NCBI RefSeq assembly: GCF_963676665.1
Contig: NZ_OY781368.1
Span: 1-64,000, forward strand
Length of the DNA stretch: 64,000 nt
Direction of reading: 5' to 3'
Source of the DNA: an uncultured Tolumonas sp.
Lineage (GTDB): Bacteria > Pseudomonadota > Gammaproteobacteria > Enterobacterales > Aeromonadaceae
The translations under genes were made by a program, and so were the position numbers. Shown here in pieces: positions 11,513-64,000 of this stretch. The notes beneath the pieces are model-generated. The model saw only the letters and a list, made by a program, of their open reading frames with translations, did no database searches and had not been told where the DNA came from. Position 1 is the first letter of the stretch; each line of letters starts with the position of its first letter.

Positions 11513-12391
11513 GGCCTGTTGATCTTTGCTGACGAAATTTCATACCTTTCACATCGGTAGCCACATCATGCAATACGCCAGTGCCAGCGTGCTGGCATAG
11601 TTTCGTGCTAATTTGTCATATCGCGTTGCGATGGCGCGATAATGTTTCAGTCGCGCAAACGCATTCTCGACTAAATGCCGATATTTATATAAACACCAAT
11701 CGATATCGGCATTACCGACCTTTGAATTCGATTTTCTGGGGATCACTGGTTTACCGTTCTTTTTCCTGACCAATTCCCGGATGAGTTCACTGTCGTAACC
11801 TTTATCGGCCACCACAAAATCGGCATCCGGTAAACACGCTATCAATTCTGGTGCCGCTTTGCTGTCGTGAACCTCACCACCGGTAAGCAGAAAATCAATG
11901 GGTAAACCATAACTGTCCACGGCTAAATGTATTTTCGTTGTATTTCCACCACGGCTTTTACCAATCGATTCACTCTCATGTGTTGATGCCCCAGTGGCAT
12001 GCTGATGAGCTCTAACAATACTGCCGTCAATAAATTCCCATTCAAAATCAGGTGATTGCTTCAGTGCTGTGAACAATTGAAGAAGAACGCCTTTTTTCGA
12101 CCAAAGATTAAAACGACGATAAATCGTGTTCCAGTCGCCAAAAGCACTGGGGATATCGCGCCACGGACAACCGACACGCATTCGGTACAAAATACCCTCA
12201 AGCGTCATACGGTGTTCCGGTTTGTTATAGACACGTCCGGTTTCAAGCAGGAGTCTGGATAGCTTTAACCAGTATTCATCTGTTAGCATTATTCGAGGCA
12301 TGGTGGTTTGGTGTGGATTGTTTTTTGGCGAAAGTGATTATATCAATTCGCCATGCCGCTCAATAATTCACCTCGAAAGATCAACAGCCCC
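11512..12391. mobile_element. IS5-family element (IS427-like), copy 1, 880 bp
   Basis: The ends are near-identical inverted repeats: GGGCCTGTTGATC at the left and GGGGCTGTTGATC, read inward, at the right (one mismatch in 13). A TA duplication flanks it at 11510-11511 and 12392-12393. It holds one transposase gene on the minus strand. A second, nearly identical copy is at 44900-45779, so the family has moved recently in this genome. It is inserted exactly in the cysS stop codon. Confidence 0.9.
11549..12301 (-). CDS. IS5-family transposase (copy 1)
   Basis: The 250-residue DDE transposase is encoded in a single frame, while many IS427-group elements split it into two frames. Catalytic residues are visible as Asp in 'FIDGSIVRAHQHATG', Asp in 'VVADKGYDSE' and Glu in 'YRHLVENAFARLKHYR'. 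The N-terminal DUF4096-like part ('VGCPWRDIPSAFGDWNTIYRRF') is complete. It differs from the copy at 44937-45689 at only a handful of residues, and both appear intact. Confidence 0.93.
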   Translation of the reverse strand: MPRIMLTDEYWLKLSRLLLETGRVYNKPEHRMTLEGILYRMRVGCPWRDIPSAFGDWNTIYRRFNLWSKKGVLLQLFTALKQSPDFEWEFIDGSIVRAHQHATGASTHESESIGKSRGGNTTKIHLAVDSYGLPIDFLLTGGEVHDSKAAPELIACLPDADFVVADKGYDSELIRELVRKKNGKPVIPRKSNSKVGNADIDWCLYKYRHLVENAFARLKHYRAIATRYDKLARNYASTLALAYCMMWLPM

Positions 12392-16251: not shown

Positions 16252-16328
<77 letters not shown>

Positions 16329-16373
16329 ACAATTAGTTGTTCGCTTTGAGTGGTAAGGCAACACAGTTCGATG

Positions 16374-16449
16374 GTGGCTATAGCTCAGTTGGTAGAGCCC
16401 CGGATTGTGATTCCGGTTGTCGTGGGTTCGAGCCCCATTAGCCACCCCA
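16374..16449 (+). tRNA. tRNA-His (GTG)
   Basis: The 76-base gene has anticodon GTG in 'ATTGTGATT', the histidine-type C discriminator and an encoded CCA. Confidence 0.95.
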
Positions 16450-16464
16450 TTTAAAGAATACAGC

Positions 16465-16549
16465 GCGGAAGTGGCGAAATTGGTAGACGCACCAGATTTA
16501 GGTTCTGGCGCCGCAAGGTGTGAGAGTTCGAGTCTCTCCTTCCGCACCA
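16465..16549 (+). tRNA. tRNA-Leu (TAG)
   Basis: The 85-base gene has the long variable arm of leucine tRNAs, anticodon TAG in 'ATTTAGGTT' and an encoded CCA. The group Pro-Arg-His-Leu has the same members as the E. coli argX-hisR-leuT-proM operon, in a different order. Confidence 0.95.
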
Positions 16550-16567
16550 TTCTTTAGATACAACAAT

Positions 16568-16591
16568 AAACCAGCGGAAGCTGGTTTTTTT
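16568..16591 (+). terminator. Terminator of the tRNA operon
   Basis: AACCAGC and GCTGGTT pair around a GGAA loop and are followed by a run of T. From 16592 to 17010 I see no gene with family support; the frame crossing tRNA-Leu here is not real. Confidence 0.85.
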
Positions 16592-17010
16592 GTGCCTGTA
16601 ATCAGGTGGGAAGAGTGGCTTTTGTCTAAAGTAGAAATTTTTCAGGGTGTTGCCGATCAAATCAGAACACGAAAACGGTATGTGTTGGTTGCTGGTAACT
16701 ACCAGCGTCTGCTTAGCCATGAGCTTCGCGGTAAGCCAGCACCATATTGGCTTGCCTTTCGTAACGACTATACGCGCCACCGCGGAATCCATGCTGGCCT
16801 GATGAACTTCCCGAGCCAGACTCAGTAATTCTATCCGTTTGACGTCGGGTGCATTCTGTTGTCTTTTGCAACAATATTTATAGCTACTACGGCGAACCTT
16901 GATGATCTAGACTAACAACAGCGGACACTAAATTAAGCGACTGTTCGCTGTTCAAACTAGTCTGGTCTTTGGTTCAGATAGTGGTGATTACAGATTTATT
17001 TGTCGTCACG

Positions 17011-40885: not shown

Positions 40886-42919
40886 ATGAAAGTCATTAAA
40901 AAAAGTTGTTTTTTTGGTCTGATATCCTTTTCTTCAGTTCTGTTTGCTGCAGAGTATAGCGCCAGTTTTAAAAATACCGATATTCAGGAATTTATTAACA
41001 CTGTTAGTCATAATTTGGATAAAACTATCATCGTTGATCCCTCAATAAAAGGTTCCGTTAACGTTCGCAGCTACGATTTATTAAATGATGAGCAGTATTA
41101 CCAGTTCTTTTTAAGCGTGCTGGATGTATATGGTTTTGCGGTTGTACCGATGCCCAGTGGTGTTCTTAAAGTGGTCAAAGCGACCAATGCAAAAACGTCG
41201 GCGATCCCAGTGGCGGATGACGTCGCACCGGGTAGTGGTGATGAAGTGGTTACGCGTGTGGTACCGGTACGTAATGTGTCAGTACGTGATTTAGCGCCAC
41301 TACTTCGGCAACTTAACGATAACGCTGGCGTTGGGAATGTCGTTCATTACGAACCTTCGAATGTATTGTTATTAACCGGACGGGCGGCGGTGGTAAACCG
41401 TCTGGTCGAAATTATACATCGTGTGGATAAAGTTGGTGATGAGAGTGTCGATATCATTAAGCTTCAATTTGCCTCGGCCAGCGAGATGGTGCGGCTTATT
41501 ACGGCACTCACTAAAAATGATAAAAACAATGTCAGTTCGGTATTAACGCCCAAACTGGTAGCAGACGAACGAACCAATGCGGTGGTGATAAGCGGCGACC
41601 CTCAAAATCGACAACGCATTGTGACATTGATCTGGCAACTTGACCGCGAACAGCAAACGCAGGGTAATACCCGCGTGTTTTATCTTAAATACGCAAAAGC
41701 CAAAAATCTGGTCGATGTCTTGAGCGGGACCAGCAAAACCATTCAGAACGAAAAAAATGGTGGTACTGGCACATCCACGAGCAATACCACTTCGGCGGCG
41801 AATACCAGCAGTGGTGCGGGCAGCAGTGCCTTTAATGGTAAAGATTTAAGTATTGTTGCGGATGAACAGACCAATGCTTTGGTGATCACGGCTCAACCGG
41901 ATGTGATGCAGGAGTTAGAACGCATCATTGCCAAACTCGATATTCGCCGTGCGCAAGTGTTGGTCGAAGCCATCATTGTAGAGGTGCAAGACGGTGATGC
42001 GCTGAATTTAGGTGTGCAATGGGCAAATACCAACGGTGCCGGAACACAGTTTACCGCCACCGGGCTACCGACCTCGACCGTCGCGAATGCGGCACTGGAA
42101 TATAAAGATCATAGTACCTTTTCATCTACTACTACGGGAGCGCTCGGTAGTTTTAATGGTCTTGTCGCCGGCATGTATTCCGGTAATTGGGCCGGCTTAG
42201 TCACTGCGCTGTCCAGTAATACCAAAAGTAATATTCTGGCGACACCCAGTATTGTCACGCTGGATAACAAAGAAGCAGCCTTTAATGTCGGGCAGGAGGT
42301 ACCCGTCATCAGTGGCAGTCAATCCAGCACCAGCGGCAGTGTTTTTAACACGGTCGAGCGTAAAACCATCGGCACCAAGCTGAAAGTCACACCGCAAATC
42401 AATGAAGGCGATTCGGTGCAAATGGAGATCGAACAGGAAGTCTCCAGTGTGGCGTCCTCCACCTCGTCGGACTCTTCGTCATCAGCCAGTCTCGGATCGA
42501 CCTTTAATACCCGCACAGTAAAAAACACCGTATTGGTTAAAAGCGGGGAAACGGTGGTCTTGGGTGGTTTACTGAATAACACCACGGCGGAATCAGTATA
42601 TGAGGTGCCGTTGTTGAGCGATATTCCAGTACTGGGTTATCTGTTTCGCTACAGTGGCACCACCAAAAGTAAACAAAATTTGATGGTGTTTATCCATCCC
42701 ACCATCTTGCGTGATCCCGTCACTTATAACGGCATTTCCAGCAGTAAATACAATTTATTCAGGGCAGAACAACTTTCACAAGAAGCGGAGACGGACCGGT
42801 TAGCGCTACCTGTCGAACGGCCTATATTGCCGGCGTATGGCACTGAACCTACGTTGTTGTCGCCCAAGATGAAAGCCGTATTGGATAAGTCAACGAATGC
42901 AGCGGTGGTACAACCATGA
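40886..42919 (+). CDS. gspD: Type II secretion outer-membrane secretin GspD
   Basis: The 677-residue protein has a signal peptide ending at 'SVLFAA', the N0 domain ('SASFKNTDIQEFINTVSHNLDKTIIVDP'), three N1-N3 repeats ('RVVPVRNVSVRDLAPLLRQL', 'IIKLQFASASEMVRLI', 'RVFYLKYAKAKNLVDVL'), a Ser/Gly/Thr-rich linker near 295-310, and the secretin beta-barrel ('VGQEVPVISGSQ', 'VLVKSGETVVLGGLL', 'VPLLSDIPVLGYLFR'). It would form the exit channel. It is intact, but gspC is missing upstream and most partners downstream are decayed, so secretion through it is doubtful. Confidence 0.95.
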   Translation: MKVIKKSCFFGLISFSSVLFAAEYSASFKNTDIQEFINTVSHNLDKTIIVDPSIKGSVNVRSYDLLNDEQYYQFFLSVLDVYGFAVVPMPSGVLKVVKATNAKTSAIPVADDVAPGSGDEVVTRVVPVRNVSVRDLAPLLRQLNDNAGVGNVVHYEPSNVLLLTGRAAVVNRLVEIIHRVDKVGDESVDIIKLQFASASEMVRLITALTKNDKNNVSSVLTPKLVADERTNAVVISGDPQNRQRIVTLIWQLDREQQTQGNTRVFYLKYAKAKNLVDVLSGTSKTIQNEKNGGTGTSTSNTTSAANTSSGAGSSAFNGKDLSIVADEQTNALVITAQPDVMQELERIIAKLDIRRAQVLVEAIIVEVQDGDALNLGVQWANTNGAGTQFTATGLPTSTVANAALEYKDHSTFSSTTTGALGSFNGLVAGMYSGNWAGLVTALSSNTKSNILATPSIVTLDNKEAAFNVGQEVPVISGSQSSTSGSVFNTVERKTIGTKLKVTPQINEGDSVQMEIEQEVSSVASSTSSDSSSSASLGSTFNTRTVKNTVLVKSGETVVLGGLLNNTTAESVYEVPLLSDIPVLGYLFRYSGTTKSKQNLMVFIHPTILRDPVTYNGISSSKYNLFRAEQLSQEAETDRLALPVERPILPAYGTEPTLLSPKMKAVLDKSTNAAVVQP

Positions 42920-43362
42920 CGGCGACGGTATCGAAGGTGACTGTATTGGCGGAACCGCCATTACAACTGGGATTTGCCTATGTACGTGATTATGGCGTGT
43001 TGTTTCAATGGCAACTGGTGGTGCTGGCACAACGCATGGTTCGTACCTTATGCCCGCAGTGTAAACAGCTGTATCCAATCAAAGCGTCAGACCGAGAGTT
43101 GTATGGCTTTCCGGTTGGCGTAACGCAACTCTGTATAAAGCCGTTGGATGTGATGTCTTCCATTTTGCGGGTTACAAAGAGCGAACCGGTATTTATGAGT
43201 TGTTGCTGGTCGATGAAACGACCCAGGAAGCCATTTATAACGCTGATAGCGAACAGGCGATAGTGCGTGTCATACACCGAGTATTCGTAGTGATATTTTT
43301 TGCGGATGATGGCGGGCGATACCTCATTGGAAGAAATCTTGCGCGTTACGCGAGAGGATTAG
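42916..43362 (+). pseudogene. gspE: gspE pseudogene with large internal deletion
   Basis: The ATG overlaps the gspD stop (ATGA), the normal T2SS coupling. About 32 N-terminal residues of the secretion ATPase ('PLQLGFAYVRDYGVLFQW') run directly into its last quarter: 'LAQRMVRTLCPQCKQLYPI' and, after a frameshift, 'GYKERTGIYELLLVDETTQEAIYN' and 'AGDTSLEEILRVTRED' before TAG. Walker A and B regions, roughly 300 residues, are gone. The product cannot be an ATPase. Confidence 0.88.
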
Positions 43363-43363
43363 C

Positions 43364-43727
43364 ATGTCTGCGTCTGCTGCACTAACCAATAATGGTCGAC
43401 GTAGATAGGGCATGATTGAAGCCGATTTACTCCCGGCAACGTTTGCGGGAGCAAGGGCTGATGCCGTTGATGTTGACCGGAGCTTTAGCCCAGATGCAGC
43501 AACATCAGGCCCAACGACGCTGGTTGCAACCGTGCATTAGTACCGGTGGGTTAGCTCTACTGAGACGCCCAGCTTGCCATGCTTGTGGTAGCCGCAATAC
43601 TGATTGAAGAAGCCATAAATGCAGTAGTCCAGCAGACTGAGAAAGCCAAACTGAGCGCCTTGATAGCAGCGGTATGTCGGCCATTCTGCAACTGATTTTG
43701 CAGCTTAATAACATGATAGGTCGTTAA
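43364..43727 (+). pseudogene. gspF: gspF pseudogene with internal deletion
   Basis: It starts two bases after gspE. Pieces of the inner-membrane platform protein appear in different frames: an early in-frame TAG, 'GMIEADLL', 'RQRLREQGLMPL', 'QLAMLVVAAILIEEAINAVVQQTEKAKLSALIAAV', then a jump to the protein's extreme C-terminus 'ILQLNNMIGR' before TAA. About two thirds of the gene is missing. Confidence 0.85.
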
Positions 43728-43743
43728 TTTTATGAGAGGTCGC

Positions 43744-44178
43744 ATGCAAGCAAAACAACGCGGTTTTACGTTATTGGAAATCATGGTGGTGATTGTGATT
43801 TTAGGCATTCTGGCCAGTTTGGTGGTGCCGAATCTGATGGGCAATAAAGACCAGGCGGACCATCAAAAAGCCGTCAGTGACATTGTGGCACTGGAGAATG
43901 CACTGGATATGTACAAGCTGGATAACAGCAGTTACCCAACCACGGACCAGGGGATGACTGCCTTGGTGACTAAACCCGACAGTGAGCCTGCGCCGAGAAA
44001 TTATAAGTCGGGTGGCTATATCAAACGCCTGCCGACGGACCCTTGGCAAAACGAGTATCAACTGCTCAGCCCGGGTGAACACGGCGCGATTGATGTGTTT
44101 TCTGTTGGTCCCGATGGACAGGCGGGCACAGATGACGACATTGGCAACTGGGCATTAGAGTCAAAAAAAGCGCAATAA
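43744..44178 (+). CDS. gspG: Type II secretion major pseudopilin GspG
   Basis: From the ATG at 43744 (AGAGG upstream) the protein has 144 residues and a prepilin peptidase site 'MQAKQRG|FTLLEIMVVIVILGILASLVVPNLMGN'. The calcium and C-terminal region typical of GspG is present ('YPTTDQGMTALVTKP', 'YIKRLPTDPWQNEYQ', 'DDIGNWALE'). It looks intact. With gspE and gspF broken it could form pilus subunits only if other assembly proteins act on it. Confidence 0.93.
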   Translation: MQAKQRGFTLLEIMVVIVILGILASLVVPNLMGNKDQADHQKAVSDIVALENALDMYKLDNSSYPTTDQGMTALVTKPDSEPAPRNYKSGGYIKRLPTDPWQNEYQLLSPGEHGAIDVFSVGPDGQAGTDDDIGNWALESKKAQ

Positions 44179-44899: not shown

Positions 44900-45779
44900 G
44901 GGCCTGTTGATCTTTGCTGATTAAATTTCACTCGTTTCACATTGGCAACCACATCATGCAACAGGCCAGTGCCAATGTGCTGGCATAGTTTCGAGCTAAT
45001 TTGTCATATCGTGTCGCGATGGCGCGATAATGTTTCAGTCTTGCAAACGCATTCTCGACCAAATGCCGGTATTTATATAAACACCAATCGATATCGGCAT
45101 TACCGAGCTTTGAGTTCGATTTTCTGGGGATCACCGGTTTACTATTCTTTGTCCTGATCAACTCCCGAATTGGCTCACTGTCGTAACCTTTGTCAGCCAC
45201 AATAAAATCGGCATCCGGTAAACACGCTATCAATTCTGGTGCCGCTTTGCTGTCGTGAACCTCACCACCGGTAAGCAGAAAATCAATGGGTAAACCATAA
45301 CTGTCCACGGCTAAATGTATTTTCGTTGTATTTCCACCACGGCTTTTACCAATCGATTCACTCTCATGTGTTGATGCCCCCGTGGCATGCTGATGAGCTC
45401 TAACAATGCTGCCGTCAATAAATTCCCATTCAAAATCAGGTGATTGCTTCAGTGCTGTGAACAATTGAAGAAGAACGCCTTTTTTCGACCAAAGATTAAA
45501 ACGACGATAAATCGTGTTCCAGTCGCCAAAAGCACTGGGGATATCGCGCCACGGACAACCGACACGCATTCGGTACAAAATACCCTCAAGCGTCATACGG
45601 TGTTCCGGTTTGTTATAGACACGTCCGGTTTCAAGCAGGAGTCTGGATAGCTTTAACCAGTATTCATCTGTTAGCATTATTCGAGGCATGGTGATTTGGT
45701 GTGGATTGTTTTTTGGCGAAAGTGATTATATCAATTCGCCATGCCGCTCAATAATTCGCCTCGAAAGATCAACAGCCCC
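44900..45779. mobile_element. IS5-family element (IS427-like), copy 2, 880 bp
   Basis: The ends are GGGCCTGTTGATC and, inward from the right, GGGGCTGTTGATC, with a TA duplication at 44898-44899 and 45780-45781. It has the same length and near-identical sequence to the copy at 11512. It is inserted into the gspI-gspM fusion. Confidence 0.92.
44937..45689 (-). CDS. IS5-family transposase (copy 2)
   Basis: The 250-residue transposase carries the same DDE residues as copy 1 ('FIDGSIVRAH', 'IVADKGYDSE', 'HLVENAFARLK'). Differences from copy 1 are few, for example 'PIRELIRTKNSKP' for 'LIRELVRKKNGKP'. The differences cluster in the C-terminal third (44940-45190), and the rest is almost identical. 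It appears functional. Confidence 0.93.
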   Translation of the reverse strand: MPRIMLTDEYWLKLSRLLLETGRVYNKPEHRMTLEGILYRMRVGCPWRDIPSAFGDWNTIYRRFNLWSKKGVLLQLFTALKQSPDFEWEFIDGSIVRAHQHATGASTHESESIGKSRGGNTTKIHLAVDSYGLPIDFLLTGGEVHDSKAAPELIACLPDADFIVADKGYDSEPIRELIRTKNSKPVIPRKSNSKLGNADIDWCLYKYRHLVENAFARLKHYRAIATRYDKLARNYASTLALACCMMWLPM

Positions 45780-57349: not shown

Positions 57350-57426
57350 TGGTGCGTCCTAGTGGACTCGAACCACCGACCCCCACCATGTCAAGGTGGT
57401 GCTCTAACCAGCTGAGCTAAGGACGC
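57350..57426 (-). tRNA. tRNA-Val (GAC)
   Basis: The 77-base gene has anticodon GAC in 'CTTGACATG', T-loop TTCGAGT and an encoded CCA. It closely resembles E. coli valV. In E. coli valV and valW are adjacent; here the second copy is truncated. Confidence 0.96.
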
Positions 57427-57454
57427 ACTTGAGAGATTTTTGCTATCGAAAAGA

Positions 57455-57504
57455 TGGTGCGTCCTAATGGACTCGAACCATCGACCCCCACCATGTCAAG
57501 GTGG
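57455..57504 (-). pseudogene. Truncated second tRNA-Val (GAC), likely attachment-site remnant
   Basis: This 50-base piece covers the 3' end of a tRNA-Val from CCA through the T-arm and the whole anticodon arm. The match to the intact gene ends at the 5' side of the anticodon stem. Two differences lie in the T-stem and are compensatory (a G-C pair became A-T), so it descends from a once functional tRNA gene. The D-arm and 5' acceptor strand are missing. I read it as the displaced 3' end left at the edge of an element lying to the right. Confidence 0.8.
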
Positions 57505-57729
57505 GGCTGACATGATCTAAAAAATACTTCAACATTTGCAATAATTCCCATATCGCCCGACATTTGTGGTTTATAGTGACCATCTCGTGCATTGAGCGTC
57601 AGATTAGTTCAATACGATTGACCCAAAGCGAGTAAACAGGTTGAATCAGTACCGAGATGAGTCAATTTATGGGTATGGCAAAGAACAAAATTGTCTGCGT
57701 TGTTTACTTTCGAGGCCATGAGTGCCGCA

Positions 57730-57896
57730 TTTCTGATACCAACGGAGCAAACGTTGAATTGATGAACAGGTGAAACGTTATATCCCTGATGCAGCATTGA
57801 AATGGCGGTCAGACGCCGAGCATGTTCTTTATCGTTAGTTTTATGAATGATTCTTTCGATTCGTCTGCGTTCGGCACGAGATAAAACTGGTAACAT
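57730..57896 (-). mobile_element. IS630-family transposase N-terminal relic
   Basis: On the minus strand the codons read 'MLPVLSRAERRRIERIIHKTNDKEHARRLTAISMLHQGYNVS', the start of IS630-type transposases, and then lose similarity. No catalytic region remains. Codons on both sides of this block in the surrounding 57609-58088 reading frame have no match. The rest of 57505-58363 shows no gene. Confidence 0.72.
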
Positions 57897-58363
57897 AGCA
57901 CTAACTCGGTTTTTGAGCGGTTGTTTACTTTGGCGACGATATGACCGTATAACTAAAATCGAATTACTCCCACCAAGTGATCTACATTTCGAAACAATTT
58001 TATCAACAGCCTGCAGGCATGTTGGTTTGTATTGCTTTCCGAAAAGTCTCATTTTTTTATGTGTGAGACTTAGTGACACATATTGCACAGCAATAATAAA
58101 AATTAATCAGAAGTGGTAGGCTTGATTCAAATCTCATATCGGATTTTAAGTGGCCGATATGTTAATAATAACGTTTAAAATTTTATTGAAATAATTCTTA
58201 TGGTTTGTTTGTTTTTGCGATACGTAATGCACAATTAATTCTTGGATGTCAATTGCATTATGCCGAGTAGCTATGTTGCTCATTATTTTTAATGGAATTT
58301 TCTATTGCAGGTTGTTGTTTTTTATGTCAAAAATATATGACGAAGTAATCAAAGGTATTTTCT

Positions 58364-58888
58364 ATGTCAAACCATATATATGCCCTGCATCCGATAGTTG
58401 AAAAATATTTTAATGACCCTATTTTCAAGATTATAAAAAGGAAAATAAATGCTTATTCATGCAATATTTCTGATTTCTCATATTTTCCTATTTTATATGA
58501 AAAGATGGAAGGCTCTGAAGAAAATAATGACGATGTTCAAAAAGGTGAAGTCCGATATTTATATTACCCAATATATCTATGTGCATTTGACGATTTAAAT
58601 CAGTTAGATAAGCGTTGCATCGTTGTACAAAGATTTTTTTCTGATTCAAAAAAGGAACGTGTATTTTTATCATCATTACTAAAAATTATATTTATACAGA
58701 TGAAAAATAATACAGAATATTATGAAGTATGTGAGTGTTTACGGATGTTAATTAACAAACACGCTAGTGATAGCCTTAAAAAACACTGGTTTTCAACTAA
58801 TGGAAAAATTTCACAATCTCAGTTTTCTACTTTTGTTGGGTTAAGTAGAAATGATTTAGCTAAAGGAAAATTAAATGTCGATGACTAA
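58364..58888 (+). CDS. Unrecognised small protein, first gene of the recombinase module
   Basis: The 174-residue protein is not known to me. It is AT-rich in codon use, like the two genes that follow. Its C-terminal part 'GKISQSQFSTFVGLSRNDLAKGK' (about 148-170) looks like a small helix-turn-helix. The preceding region is predicted helical, with 'LYYPIYLCAF' as a possible strand. Its end overlaps the start of the large recombinase gene by 14 bases, so the two are translationally coupled. It might direct or regulate recombination; if this is a gamma-mobile-trio island I cannot say whether it corresponds to the trio's small member. Confidence 0.6.
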   Translation: MSNHIYALHPIVEKYFNDPIFKIIKRKINAYSCNISDFSYFPILYEKMEGSEENNDDVQKGEVRYLYYPIYLCAFDDLNQLDKRCIVVQRFFSDSKKERVFLSSLLKIIFIQMKNNTEYYEVCECLRMLINKHASDSLKKHWFSTNGKISQSQFSTFVGLSRNDLAKGKLNVDD

Positions 58889-61247
58889 TATAAATGAGTC
58901 AAATAAAAGTGTTTTTTCTGATATTTATTCGGTCATGTTTCCGACAGCACTGATAATGTTGATGCCTGATTTAATTGATGTGCATCATGTTATTTTAATT
59001 TTTTTACAGGAATTGATGCCGGAAAAATTTTTATATGAAAATAACGATGGTAAGTATTATATGTATCGTGAGGAAATAGAATGGATAAATAGCTTATCCA
59101 TTCAAAAATCATCGGATAAAATAAATTACAAAGAATATGCTAATAGTATAAAAGAGCGTATCAAAAAAGCTAGAAAAGTCGAGGTCTATAGTTTGCAGCT
59201 ATCTATCATCGCAAATGTCGGCGTTGAAAGAAACTTAAACCTTGGTATTTTTAATGAGTTAAAAACAATTACACTATTGTCAGTAATAAAAATATTAAAA
59301 AATGTTAACTTTCGTGGAAATGAATCCACGAATAGCAGCGTTAAAGAAGTAGTTTTAAATATTAGACGATTTCAAGATGGTGCAAGAAGAAAATTCGCAA
59401 AAATGATATCTGAAATTGATTTTTCACTTTCAATCGATTCTATAAAAAATGAATTTGTTAAATTATATGACCCATCGAAAAATGATGTATCTAACAGGGC
59501 CCTGTCTTCTCTGATTATTATTCTGGAACTTATTTTGGGTACTGGAAAGGGTGGGGGTGGTGGTCGAAATTATAAAACAAAAATTGAAGTTGATGCCGTA
59601 TTTCAGGTGGATGGCTGTACAGTTGAGAGGTTAGTTGAAATTGATTATCTCTCTAACCGAGATAAAACTGCACATAGTGAACAAGAAGATCAACGTGGTT
59701 TAATAACAAGAAAAGTTTCGTACCTAATTTCTCCTCGCGAACGTCTAGCTGATTTAAAAGTCAACCAATGGCGTGCAGCATCGATAGCTTTATCAATGTC
59801 AATCAGGACGCAATCACTACCCTGTGATATAGGACAGTTATCTGAATGCCAAGTTAAAACTTTATCCCAATACTTTATTCAACAGATTAAAATTGGGAAT
59901 AATGCATATGGTTTGCTACTAATAATGGTTTTACTTGGTAAAACCATTCAAGATCTTCAAAATTTAAAAATCTATACTGAAACTGAATCTAATCAAAGTA
60001 TTAATTCAAATAAATTTGATTCAATCATTAACAATGATGATGTATTTTTTGCATTTCGAACAGTGAAGGTCACTCATGGCAAAATTCATGCTAAATTAAA
60101 TAAAGATTTAATGCCAATAGATGAAAAGTTAAAACTTAATCTTCCTACAATATTAAAACATATCATGAGTAACGGTAGTAAGTTGGATGTTACAGAGTCC
60201 GCATTGAGACAAGAGTTGGACAAAGCATCTACTAAAACTGGCATTCAGATAACGTTATCACAATTATCAAATTATTTATCAAATTGGTTACAAAGGCACA
60301 GTGTAGATCAAGCTATTATGGGGGTCTTAACTGAAAAAACAGTTAAACAATGTGCTCCAATGGCCTACAGTCGGATCCCTATTCATAAAATAAATACAAT
60401 ATGGATGGAGTATTTGCTTTCGCTTGGCATTTTATCTGATGATGTGAATACCGAGAATATTGTTAATGTGATGAAATATGTTGGAAGTCGTTTATATCCT
60501 GAGCACGATACCTTGCAGATAAAAATTAAAAACCTACAAGATTCATTACAATATATCAAGAGTCTAAAAAATATAGCTAGAACAGATGAAGCATCAAAAA
60601 TAATTGATTTTCATAATTTATTTATTAAATATACATTGTTGATTTTAAATTTATCAACAGGTGCTAGACCTGTGACTGACATGTACGGCACAGTTGAGAA
60701 TTACTGTCTAAAATCAAAATTTATCAGAATCTCTGACAAAGAAGCCAGATCAGTTCCCGCAGGAAGATTTCTTCCCCTGACAAATATTGCGGTAAAACAA
60801 TTAGATAATTTGGAGTCTTACCTAAAACAGTTATCAGATAAATTTAAATTCAGCTATGCAAATATTGCATGCGCGGCTCATGATGCAATCAATTCCAATG
60901 GCCCATTTTTGTTTTGGCTGCAGCATGTTGAAACTATTCATGAAGAAAATGTTCGTAATAAAATAATAGTGGAACAAGTTAGCCCTCGATCATTATTACA
61001 ACACTTTGATCATGATTTCCCATATCCAGTGAATTGGCATCGCCATGCTGTACGAACCCGATTGATGATGTGTGATGAGATTAGCTCGGCTCTGGTCGAT
61101 CATGTTATGGGACATGAGAATATGGGGCATGAATATGCAAATTTATTCAGCGGGTCATCACTACAGGATCTCCGTATCGTATCCGAACATTTAAATGACT
61201 GGCTGAATAGTTTAGGTTTAACAGTATTGGAAGCGAAAGTATGGTAA
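58875..61247 (+). CDS. Very large tyrosine recombinase (790 residues), GmtY/Gin-like
   Basis: The catalytic domain is at the C-terminus: Arg598 in 'LSTGARPVTDMYG', His724-x-x-Arg727 in 'WHRHAVRTRL', His747 in 'HVMGHENMGHEY' and the presumed nucleophile Tyr754. The His to Tyr distance is only seven residues, shorter than the usual nine or ten. The first 590 residues have no familiar domain; a glycine-rich patch occurs near 220-227 ('GTGKGGGGGRN'). Proteins of this size and layout occur in multi-recombinase island modules such as GMT and GInt; the name is by analogy. AAAGGA precedes the ATG, and its last codons overlap the next gene (ATGGTAA). Confidence 0.82.
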   Translation: MSMTNINESNKSVFSDIYSVMFPTALIMLMPDLIDVHHVILIFLQELMPEKFLYENNDGKYYMYREEIEWINSLSIQKSSDKINYKEYANSIKERIKKARKVEVYSLQLSIIANVGVERNLNLGIFNELKTITLLSVIKILKNVNFRGNESTNSSVKEVVLNIRRFQDGARRKFAKMISEIDFSLSIDSIKNEFVKLYDPSKNDVSNRALSSLIIILELILGTGKGGGGGRNYKTKIEVDAVFQVDGCTVERLVEIDYLSNRDKTAHSEQEDQRGLITRKVSYLISPRERLADLKVNQWRAASIALSMSIRTQSLPCDIGQLSECQVKTLSQYFIQQIKIGNNAYGLLLIMVLLGKTIQDLQNLKIYTETESNQSINSNKFDSIINNDDVFFAFRTVKVTHGKIHAKLNKDLMPIDEKLKLNLPTILKHIMSNGSKLDVTESALRQELDKASTKTGIQITLSQLSNYLSNWLQRHSVDQAIMGVLTEKTVKQCAPMAYSRIPIHKINTIWMEYLLSLGILSDDVNTENIVNVMKYVGSRLYPEHDTLQIKIKNLQDSLQYIKSLKNIARTDEASKIIDFHNLFIKYTLLILNLSTGARPVTDMYGTVENYCLKSKFIRISDKEARSVPAGRFLPLTNIAVKQLDNLESYLKQLSDKFKFSYANIACAAHDAINSNGPFLFWLQHVETIHEENVRNKIIVEQVSPRSLLQHFDHDFPYPVNWHRHAVRTRLMMCDEISSALVDHVMGHENMGHEYANLFSGSSLQDLRIVSEHLNDWLNSLGLTVLEAKVW

Positions 61248-64000
61248 ACCCATTTATAGTGGCTGAAGAAACACTCGCTAATACAAAAAAAAATTTACAA
61301 AAACAAAGAAAAATTGCAGAAGATAAAGAGCTTGAAAAATTAGCATCTAATTTAAATTTACTATCTATACAACAACATGTGGTTCAAGTATTTAAAGATG
61401 TCATGCCAACGATGTTTTCCGAACCAGTGGAAACTACAAACTACGAAATAAATTATGGGAAATTTGTTGATTTATATCGTGAAAAATGCAATGTAACAGA
61501 TCAATTCAGAAAAGGCATATTATATTTACAAGAAATAATTCAATCGGGAAATGTAGAGGGATATTGGTCATTAGATATTCCGAGTCTATCAATTGAAGTT
61601 TCTCGAGATCTGATCCCATACGATGAACATTGGTTAAAAAAAAGCAAGCAGTGTCTCCAATTACATGAGAAATGGATTGCAGATATTGAATCAAAGCGGC
61701 GAGTTAAATACACTCCGGAGATATTGTTTACAGATATCTTGTTGAGTTCAATATTTCACTCTGGTATTCACGATATAAATCGTTTACTAGCATTAGCTCA
61801 ATTTATTTTGAAGAAACAAAAAATAACTTCTACTGATTCTTATTATTGGGTTCGGCTATCGCTAAGTCAGAATCATGTGAATCATATAGATGAAGATAAT
61901 AACCTCACATATCAATATAATCAGTTCTTGGCGTTGCCTACTATTGGATTGATAGGTCGATATTATCGAAACAACAAAATGAATTGTTCTTTTTTGAATG
62001 ATGAGGAATTAAAGAAATTTTTCGTGAAAAATATAAAACCATATAATCTAAATCATCTTACTTTTAATGAGGTTTGCCGCTATAGCCAAATGACTATTCA
62101 TTTAAACAATGGCATCCAATATCCACAAATATTATCTCATGTAGCACTAGGAGACATTTGCTCAACAGCATTGTATCATGAAAATTGAGAGTTAATATAT
62201 CGACCTGTTGAAGCAACTAATGCTGAGATTAAAATCAAACGCTCCTACTCAGCAATATCAGGTAAAAATAAAACTAGAGCAGTTGTTAATCGCTCTGATT
62301 TTATTTTAAAAATTCGCTATCACCTTAGGGATAGAATAAGCAGCAATCAAAAGAATTCAAGGTTGGATGCAAAAAAACAATTGTATTTATTGAAAGAAAA
62401 AAATGAATTTAGTGACTCTGAGAATGTCATTTTAAGTTGGTTGTGCTATCAATTAGAGAAAAATAATGAACTATCAACACTAAATACCTATTTATCTAGA
62501 GCGTGTATACTGTGGCTACTATTTTGCAATAATGAAAACATTGATGAATGGTCTGGGGAGAAATTTCTTTCTGTATACAGAGATATTTTAGAGCAAGACT
62601 ATAACGCCAACAAAAAAATAACAAATGATTCTATCAAACATCATGATCATAGTGATTACTCTTCCGTTCTGGCTGAATTGCTTACAAGAATCCATACACA
62701 TGCAATGAAAGAGTTCGGGCTCGAGGCGTTACCTGAGCACCTGTTAGATGGTACGAAAAAAATAATTCATGTAAAAGCAGGTTTTATCAGTGAACCACAT
62801 TTCAAATTTGTATTAAATGCATTATCTAACTGCACTGAATTATATTCACAAGAAAAAAATGTTTTAATCTGCATTGCTACGATTGCATTCAGAACGGGGC
62901 TGAGATTTAGTGAAATTCAATATTTGAAATTAAATAATATTGAAAACTCTGATGAATTATGGATTTATGTTCGCTGTACATCAGCTGACAATCTTAAGAC
63001 ATTAAGTGCTCGACGCCGTATACCTCTTGGTCTATTGCTAACACCCGATGAAAAAATAATTATAAAAAACTACTTAAATGAAAAATTCGGGCAAGAGGCT
63101 TATGATTCTACAAAATTTGCATTCACTTTAGGCGAAAATCAATATTTACCTATTCCTGGCGATATGATTCGTCAGACGATCAAGTCGGCAATAAATCAAT
63201 GCAGTGATAAATCAAAGTCTGCATTTACATTTCATCATTTACGCCATACAGCTCTAAGTCGACTCCAATTAATCATTCATCGGAAGATATTAAACTATCA
63301 GAATGAACAAAATATATTTTGGCGTAATTCAGTAGCTTGGTCACCCGAGCAATGTGATCAGATTTATCATGCTATTTTATCCGGTCATCCAAGGGGCGAT
63401 TATTGGGCTCTTTGTAAATTTTCAGGACATCAATCTCCTGCAACCACATTGAAAAATTACCTACATTTTTCTGATTTGGTTGCTGCATCATGCATGAACG
63501 CGGGGGTATATCAGTGGAGCTATTATTTAATAAATTATTTTTCTGGAATTTCATTGGAAAAAATAAATGAATTATCTAATAATTCAACTTATTTTTGTGA
63601 GAGTGCTTATTCGAATGCAATGAAAGAAGCGATTGGTAAATTTACCAAATTAGTTTCATGTACTGACCGTGCAATGCCAAATATTTCACCTATTATCCAT
63701 AAATTAAATATTCATGCTATCTATGAAATAATTTCTGTTTTAGAATTACACCATGACCACTCATTTTTGCAAACAAAGTATGATTTGAATGATGATATCA
63801 TGATTGATTTGTTCTCTGCAGCGGTAAAACTAAGTTCATTTAAAACAGAAAAAGGTAAGAGCCGAATTAATTCGACTTCTCGCTCTAATTTATTACAACC
63901 TGCAAAGCTTCGCTCGCATGCTGAGCAAAATGAGTTTAGTCGATTGGTTCCTAAATTTGAGGTTTTTTCTGAAGTCGAAATCGACGAATTTGAGTTTTTA
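61241..64000 (+). pseudogene. Second very large tyrosine recombinase (GmtZ/Gin-like), in-frame TGA at 62186, runs off the window
   Basis: The gene begins in the stop of the preceding recombinase (ATGGTAA). After 315 codons it meets TGA at 62186-62188, then stays open in the same frame for 604 codons to the window end. The five catalytic residues all lie after the TGA: Arg555 in 'FRTGLRFSEIQYL', His665-x-x-Arg668 in 'FHHLRHTAL', His730 in 'FSGHQSPATT' and Tyr740 in 'LKNYLHFSD'. At least 200 more residues follow Tyr740. No good ATG start lies soon after the TGA (first at 62706). It may be a recent nonsense mutation, a sequencing error or readthrough. The 3' end is outside the window. Confidence 0.8.

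Follow-up and report, generated by a model that had tools for sequence, protein, structure and literature searches.

Islands equipped with several recombinases (GInt, SE, GMT and RIT) are a growing group in which the division of labour is poorly understood. RITs consist of three recombinases in about 3.5 kb, according to the available part of PMC3414803. GInts are described as inserted into genes for proteins (an ABC transporter and ssb), flanked by 10–17-nt repeats, and tRNA is not mentioned in the main text (PMC5385486); the same holds for the main text on SE (PMC10214605). Our comparison with known kinds also drew on PMC12715929 and PMC8138268, each available in part. Here, we analyzed a window of 64,000 bases (bases 1–64000 of the 152,064-base contig C1 in the 4.2-Mb genome G000). 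It contains what appears to be a worn-out copy of a recombinase set not described before. No description of the set was found among the literature matches listed, which were mostly without subscription papers. We estimate a probability of about 60% that the three genes of the set (X, Y and Z) and a convergent pair (H and I) form a recombination module of islands whose integration site is the anticodon stem-loop of a tRNA gene, and that the window holds a decayed copy of it. This reading is based on island ends, gene sets, catalytic residues, Y–Z fusions and the joint divergence of Y, Z and I, from which we infer the division of labour.

A decayed X-Y-Z copy and the ends of its island

The ORF list of the window contained three genes on the + strand: X (58364–58888, 174 aa), without a library match above cut-off; Y (58875–61247, 790 aa), a degenerate tyrosine recombinase; and Z (61241–64390, 1,049 codons), a tyrosine recombinase that runs past the right edge of the window at 64000. 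X and Y overlap by 14 bp and Y and Z by 7 bp, as a sequence-only reading of this DNA had described: three overlapping genes, the small protein first. That reading had also taken Z for an intact recombinase of more than 900 residues. The frame of Z is interrupted by a single in-frame TGA (62186–62188), leaving two ORFs in the same frame (61241–62188, 315 aa, and 62363–64390, 675 aa); all six relatives aligned read through the position of the stop. To the right of the window we found H, which encodes an HD-domain homologue (C1 64452–65243, − strand), and the last ≈ 40 codons of integrase I (C1 65253–65378, − strand), which match residues 357–395 of the G008 integrase at 67% over 42 columns. This Arm-type integrase has been truncated by an IS21-type element (C1 frames 65393–66982 and 66972–67760). 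Intact I, present in all seven relatives with both island ends located, is thus absent from the window island, where only the C-terminal remnant was found. The window copy of the module is probably dead; given the stop in Z and the loss of I to the IS21-type element, the ≈ 66-kb island is probably immobile without help.

Searches of Pfam, NCBIfam and PHROGs yielded nothing above cut-off for X, for Y (whose Pfam E-value of 0.004 was the best) or for the first part of Z; the second part of Z matched Phage_integrase. The catalytic positions of Z (arginine, lysine, RH, GH and tyrosine) are intact in 16 of 16 aligned sequences. In Y, the R, K, RH and GH positions are likewise intact in all 16 aligned, but the tyrosine is not conserved. 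A direct profile comparison of Y with Z gave a weak result. The two are fused into one frame in G095 (1,800 aa), G212 (1,825 aa) and G242 (1,278 aa, near a contig end). The AlphaFold model of X was of moderate confidence and had no PDB match with E ≤ 0.001. The Foldseek matches of the Y model were weak and the best nine were all tyrosine recombinases; because the mean pLDDT was 57 and the best match (XerH) had an E-value of 0.076, this structural likeness is only suggestive. In relatives read in detail, X has ≈ 190–250 aa, Y ≈ 740–850 aa and Z ≈ 1,010–1,120 aa. H (≈ 260–320 aa) has an HD domain with weak similarity to TraI_2/MobH, and I (≈ 390–410 aa) has Arm-DNA-bind_2 and Phage_integrase domains.

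The sequence-only reading had placed the island edge at a tRNA-Val fragment followed by an IS630 relic. Both features are present. An intact tRNA-Val(GAC) gene was called at 57350–57426 (− strand) and a second one, of 73 nt, beside it at 57455–57527 (− strand). Set against an intact pair elsewhere in the genome (C11:1453401–1453582), the second gene diverges after 57504, and only its 3′ part up to that position remains. The relic (about 57504–57996, − strand) is homologous to an intact element in G008 that encodes a 339-aa DDE_3/HTH transposase; the name IS630 fits but was assigned by eye, and a Pfam search of the relic's own frame gave no match. The left edge of the relic corresponds to the inside of the element, about 57 nt from the end of the intact copy as placed by eye from its terminal repeats. 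The inner edge of the tRNA-Val fragment therefore joins the interior of a transposon and not the trio, and the fragment is a scar, not a shown attachment site of the window trio. Attachment of this copy at the second tRNA-Val was rejected, the relic accounting for the junction there. An inverted repeat (CATGTCA...TGACATG, 57492–57514) was likewise rejected as a core site: its right arm is internal transposon sequence that occurs in G008 without an adjoining tRNA-Val, so the repeat is due to chance. The tRNA-Val pair (57350–57504) is internal to the island and matches the far end of the tRNA-Val island of G002 (L125) at 86.6% over 329 bp. In a genome of the same species (G100, 87% complete), DNA matches were confined to the tRNA-Val end and the transposon, and the module had none.

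At the intact tRNA-Val pair on C11 lies a remnant island (1442410–1453582, L043) with a 34-bp tRNA-Val fragment that has the same end as the G002 trio island. Its genes include one for a DpdE-like protein and, as judged by eye, HipBA-like ones; its interior gave no PF00589 match.

The actual ends of the window island are at 16279 and about 82287. They are marked by a 318-bp direct repeat (98.4% identical), whose left copy (16279–16596, + strand) starts in the anticodon stem of a tRNA-Arg(TCT) gene (16252–16328) and whose right copy lies outside the window at C1 81963–82280. The repeats begin at nucleotide 28 of tRNA-Arg(TCT) and continue through tRNA-His and tRNA-Leu. In the congener G003, a single copy of the repeat represents the empty site; there, the sequence to the right of C1 82284 resumes after 0.47 kb of other DNA. 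The right island end has TTAACAGGTACGG in common with the trio-bearing tRNA-Arg island of G008. As to the earlier expectation of a tRNA-Val or matching repeat to the right, no tRNA-Val was found between 57527 and the contig end at 152064 (94.5 kb), but the tRNA-Arg/His/Leu repeat at 82 kb upholds the idea of an island, with other ends than those proposed. The trio is internal to this ≈ 66-kb island; since Z was the sole match between the island ends in a PF00589 search of C1, no recombinase set other than the trio was seen in it. About 41 kb of other DNA separates the left island end from X. This distance would need a later insertion and counts against reading X-Y-Z and H-I as a two-part module.

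Complete extra copies of tRNA-His and tRNA-Leu are found within the end repeats at 16374–16549 in the window, at 82059–82233 on the contig and at 2050957–2051133 in G008. Each insertion into tRNA-Arg therefore adds tRNA genes to the host. Among the cargo genes to the right of the module are those for HipA and an HTH partner, ParE/Phd and CcdA/CcdB. Inside the island, the window also contains genes of the Type II secretion kind (40886–44178): a GspD-type secretin, a weak GspE-like fragment and a GspG-type pseudopilin. Four 250-aa frames with the same start were seen at 11549–12301 and 44937–45689 in the window, at 114306–115058 on the contig and at 1450488–1451240 on C11. The first matches IS4/5-type transposases, so the four are probably one IS copied around the genome.

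Related islands at tRNA genes

We located both ends of seven related islands of about 25 to 90 kb, all of which start in the anticodon stem-loop of a tRNA gene. Five are in tRNA-Asp (47.1 and 41.4 kb in G040, 24.9 kb in G010, 35.6 kb in G042 and 29.7 kb in G014), one is at a tandem tRNA-Val pair (≈ 89.7 kb, G002) and one is in tRNA-Arg(TCT) (43.4 kb, G008), with a 344-bp repeat that includes tRNA-His and tRNA-Leu. As in the window island, the target tRNA of each is split, with an intact copy at one end and a fragment at the other. In the five tRNA-Asp islands, the cut falls in the anticodon stem of tRNA-Asp: its 3′ half lies on the X side, an intact tRNA-Asp lies at the far end, and the end repeats measure 49–163 bp. 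A 5S gene was called by Rfam beside the intact tRNA-Asp in three of them (the second G040 island, G010 and G042); of the other two, G014 has a contig that stops there and the first G040 island had none called. The X-side half of tRNA-Asp was also present in G043 and G020, for which the far end was not found. Empty sites were seen where G042 holds its 35.6-kb island: in G017 and G058, recQ, identified with support from its RecQ zinc domain, has an intact tRNA-Asp after it. In G017 a 5S gene comes next, and in G058 this tRNA lies at the end of the contig. G044 likewise has recQ close to tRNA-Asp, with the contig ending within the tRNA.

G040 carries two modules at two tRNA-Asp genes (2213594–2222346, L047, and 3207548–3217752, L103). 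They are 98–100% identical over most of their length, and one Y is split by a transposase-bearing insert. Another relative was found in NZ_AP026896.1 (L082), a 4.9-Mb record labelled as plasmid pKAM479_3 of Aeromonas caviae that is more likely a chromosome; its Z is broken into four pieces separated by other frames.

X, Y, Z, H and I were present in all seven islands, counting the G040 Y split by an IS, and in relatives read in detail H-I is convergent to X-Y-Z. H was retained even at a distance from Z (9.4 kb in G042 and 10.2 kb in G002). X was the outermost protein gene at one end of every island, 187–577 bp from the crossover as measured from the listed ORF starts: 187–220 bp inside it in six islands and, with tRNA-His and tRNA-Leu intervening, about 577 bp in G008. 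The earlier proposal of a multi-recombinase module in a tRNA-associated island is thus supported by the tRNA-Arg repeats and the relatives; that the module sits at one island end is borne out by the seven relatives and not by the window. At nine of 21 loci with the upstream region inspected, no tRNA was seen within the ≤ 1 kb covered, which counts against the module reading; one of these nine, Aeromonas fluvialis (G029), has tRNAs farther upstream, at 1.6 kb.

Profiles of X, Y and Z built from ten Aeromonadaceae members recovered proteins of a Vibrio plasmid, an Acinetobacter plasmid and further genomes (the test set was small and the E-values of this test are relative only), and later profiles recovered members in other families. 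A search for relatives with Y alone gave 17 of 100 genomes at E ≤ 0.001, our own included. Among plasmid records, 39 of 72,556 matched, 36 of them from Acinetobacter; most of the 30 matches listed had 22–24% identity over about half the protein. A scan of the genome collection with two short peptide patterns gave 36 stretches, four of which were confirmed, so distant relatives were missed. The 38 viral stretches that matched a pattern included no relative, and the phage records searched had none.

A second recombinase set lies on C22 of the same genome (87546–95140; L014 7547–15141), with proteins of 163, 512, 948, 425 and 388 aa encoded on one strand. In profile comparison, the 512-aa protein matched family Y (probability 88%) and the 948-aa protein family Z (97.6%), and a Pfam search with the 425-aa protein gave no match. 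This set is a distant cousin of the trio with all genes in one direction.

Some relatives lie near defence genes, as had been anticipated for the cargo. GajA and GajB (Gabija) adjoin the trio of G003 and also lie near the second trio of G008. In G040, a DruE3-type protein (Druantia) is encoded next to a module, and an Acinetobacter johnsonii plasmid has a type I restriction enzyme close to its trio. PADLOC matched seven of nine proteins, which had been picked by eye as likely defence genes and are not an unbiased sample. The trio family is thus a handle for finding defence cargo.

Proposed roles of X-Y-Z and H-I

How the work is shared between the two gene units is suggested by where each occurs without the other. 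Within the class, Y was found in 12 of 369 genomes (E ≤ 1e-8, our own included) and H in 30 of 369 (E ≤ 1e-6), many of the weaker H matches being possibly unrelated HD proteins. Eight H matches reached 1e-18, a cut-off chosen after the table had been seen, and five of these eight genomes had Y (hypergeometric p 7.6e-7; 1.5e-5 without our own genome). In the other three (G270, G322 and G368), no Y was detected and I adjoins H. Conversely, in G029, G003, L083 and others, the sequence read contained a trio with Y but neither H nor I. Since H-I can stand alone, X-Y-Z sometimes does, and the two occur together in the seven islands, we assign the choice of tRNA to I and a further step to Y-Z. I, as an Arm-DNA-binding integrase, would pick the tRNA site. 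Z would be the active half of a Y-Z complex that cuts and joins DNA, with Y as its structural, catalytically degenerate partner and X as a small accessory protein; together, X, Y and Z may bring about excision, the formation of circles or, at the same end, a second step of recombination. That islands in tRNA anticodons need two machines, a standard integrase I and a heteromeric Y-Z with X for a distinct step (which may be excision, circle replication or cargo exchange, for example), is a tentative proposal that we hold at somewhat less than even odds.

The position of X next to the crossover in all seven islands, with I further inside, could also mean that Z with Y and X is the tRNA integrase itself and that I and H have another role, such as control of excision. 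The A. fluvialis trio fits such an arrangement: it lies near tRNA-Pro-Arg-His, and neither I nor H was present in the 40 kb read. However, three of the eight strong-H genomes have H-I without a detected Y, I has the Arm-DNA-bind_2 and Phage_integrase domains that are usual for tRNA integrases, and trios without I (L080 and L083) show no tRNA beside X. We regard this assignment as unlikely, if the most serious of the alternatives. Improbable to a greater degree is that X-Y-Z is a separate, transposon-like element riding on ordinary tRNA islands. It would explain why, in the stretches read, X-Y-Z occurs on Vibrio and Acinetobacter plasmids without H-I or with a divergent integrase. Against it, X-Y-Z lies at the very island end in seven of seven cases; no ends of its own were found, and the near-identical G040 modules share the stretch from the tRNA half past I. 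Furthermore, Y, Z and I diverge together: their distances correlate over 12 systems (r 0.94–0.98, permutation p 5e-5), which may reflect only shared descent.

The module reading, with I choosing the tRNA and Y-Z acting at a further step, lends itself to experiment. Owing to the clear tRNA ends, the empty sites, the separation of I from Y-Z and the natural fusions, the need for several recombinases can be tested gene by gene.

Comparison with known systems

The trio relatives appear to form a family of their own, set apart from GMT and SE by homology tests and from GInt and RIT by published descriptions. The sequence-only reading had likened the locus to GMT and GInt islands and placed it in tRNA-Val. 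In gross design the likeness holds: GMT (GmtY, GmtX and GmtZ, its design being taken from model names and a control locus) likewise has three overlapping genes for a protein of ≈ 200 aa and large recombinases, and there are defence genes near trio relatives. GInt (ginABCD) likewise has, at one island end, several recombinases, one with a partial catalytic set, and a small protein. Nevertheless, the NCBIfam Gmt models gave no match to the window proteins at E ≤ 0.1, nor to the set of one relative and the C22 set at E ≤ 1. In G000, the sole match of the GmtY model NF040693 (recomb_GmtY) was a generic integrase on C11, below the cut-off. NF040692 (recomb_assoc), which we take to be GmtX, matched none of the trio sets and nothing in the control genomes either. 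In hhalign comparisons of the X, Y and Z profiles with a true GmtY-bearing locus (L099), which had limited power as single sequences were set against family profiles, all probabilities were below 2%. We therefore rejected membership in GMT. The order of genes also differs: the GMT control locus reads 441, 908 and 200 aa with the small gene last, and GInt has three recombinases with the small gene last, whereas the trio has the small gene first, two recombinase-type genes and then a convergent unit. This comparison with GInt was made by gene order and description. Trio islands, unlike GMT, target tRNA genes, and the tRNA-Val junction that had suggested an insertion is explained by the transposon relic. 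A GMT or GInt island in tRNA-Val is consequently very improbable, far more so than the other alternatives. The original observation was partly confirmed, and is worth keeping for the family to which it led.

SE (strand-biased circularizing elements; intA-tfp-intB-srap) is akin to the trio module in having two active recombinases, a degenerate one and a small protein. It is a single operon, whereas X-Y-Z and H-I are two convergent units. Profiles of X, Y and Z showed no similarity to the SE-6945 genes (intA being represented by a 311-residue part only), and SE membership was rejected on this basis. RIT and Tn554 have overlapping recombinase genes in common with the trio, which differs, by their descriptions, in having two large recombinase-type proteins with X and a separate I. 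Finally, the trio islands share with tRNA genomic islands (Islander, in the available part of PMC4383910) a split tRNA target, intact and displaced copies of it and an Arm-type integrase, I. They differ from ordinary tRNA islands in two respects: a second recombinase set of three genes, X-Y-Z, lies at one end, and the repeats can carry whole extra tRNAs (His and Leu).
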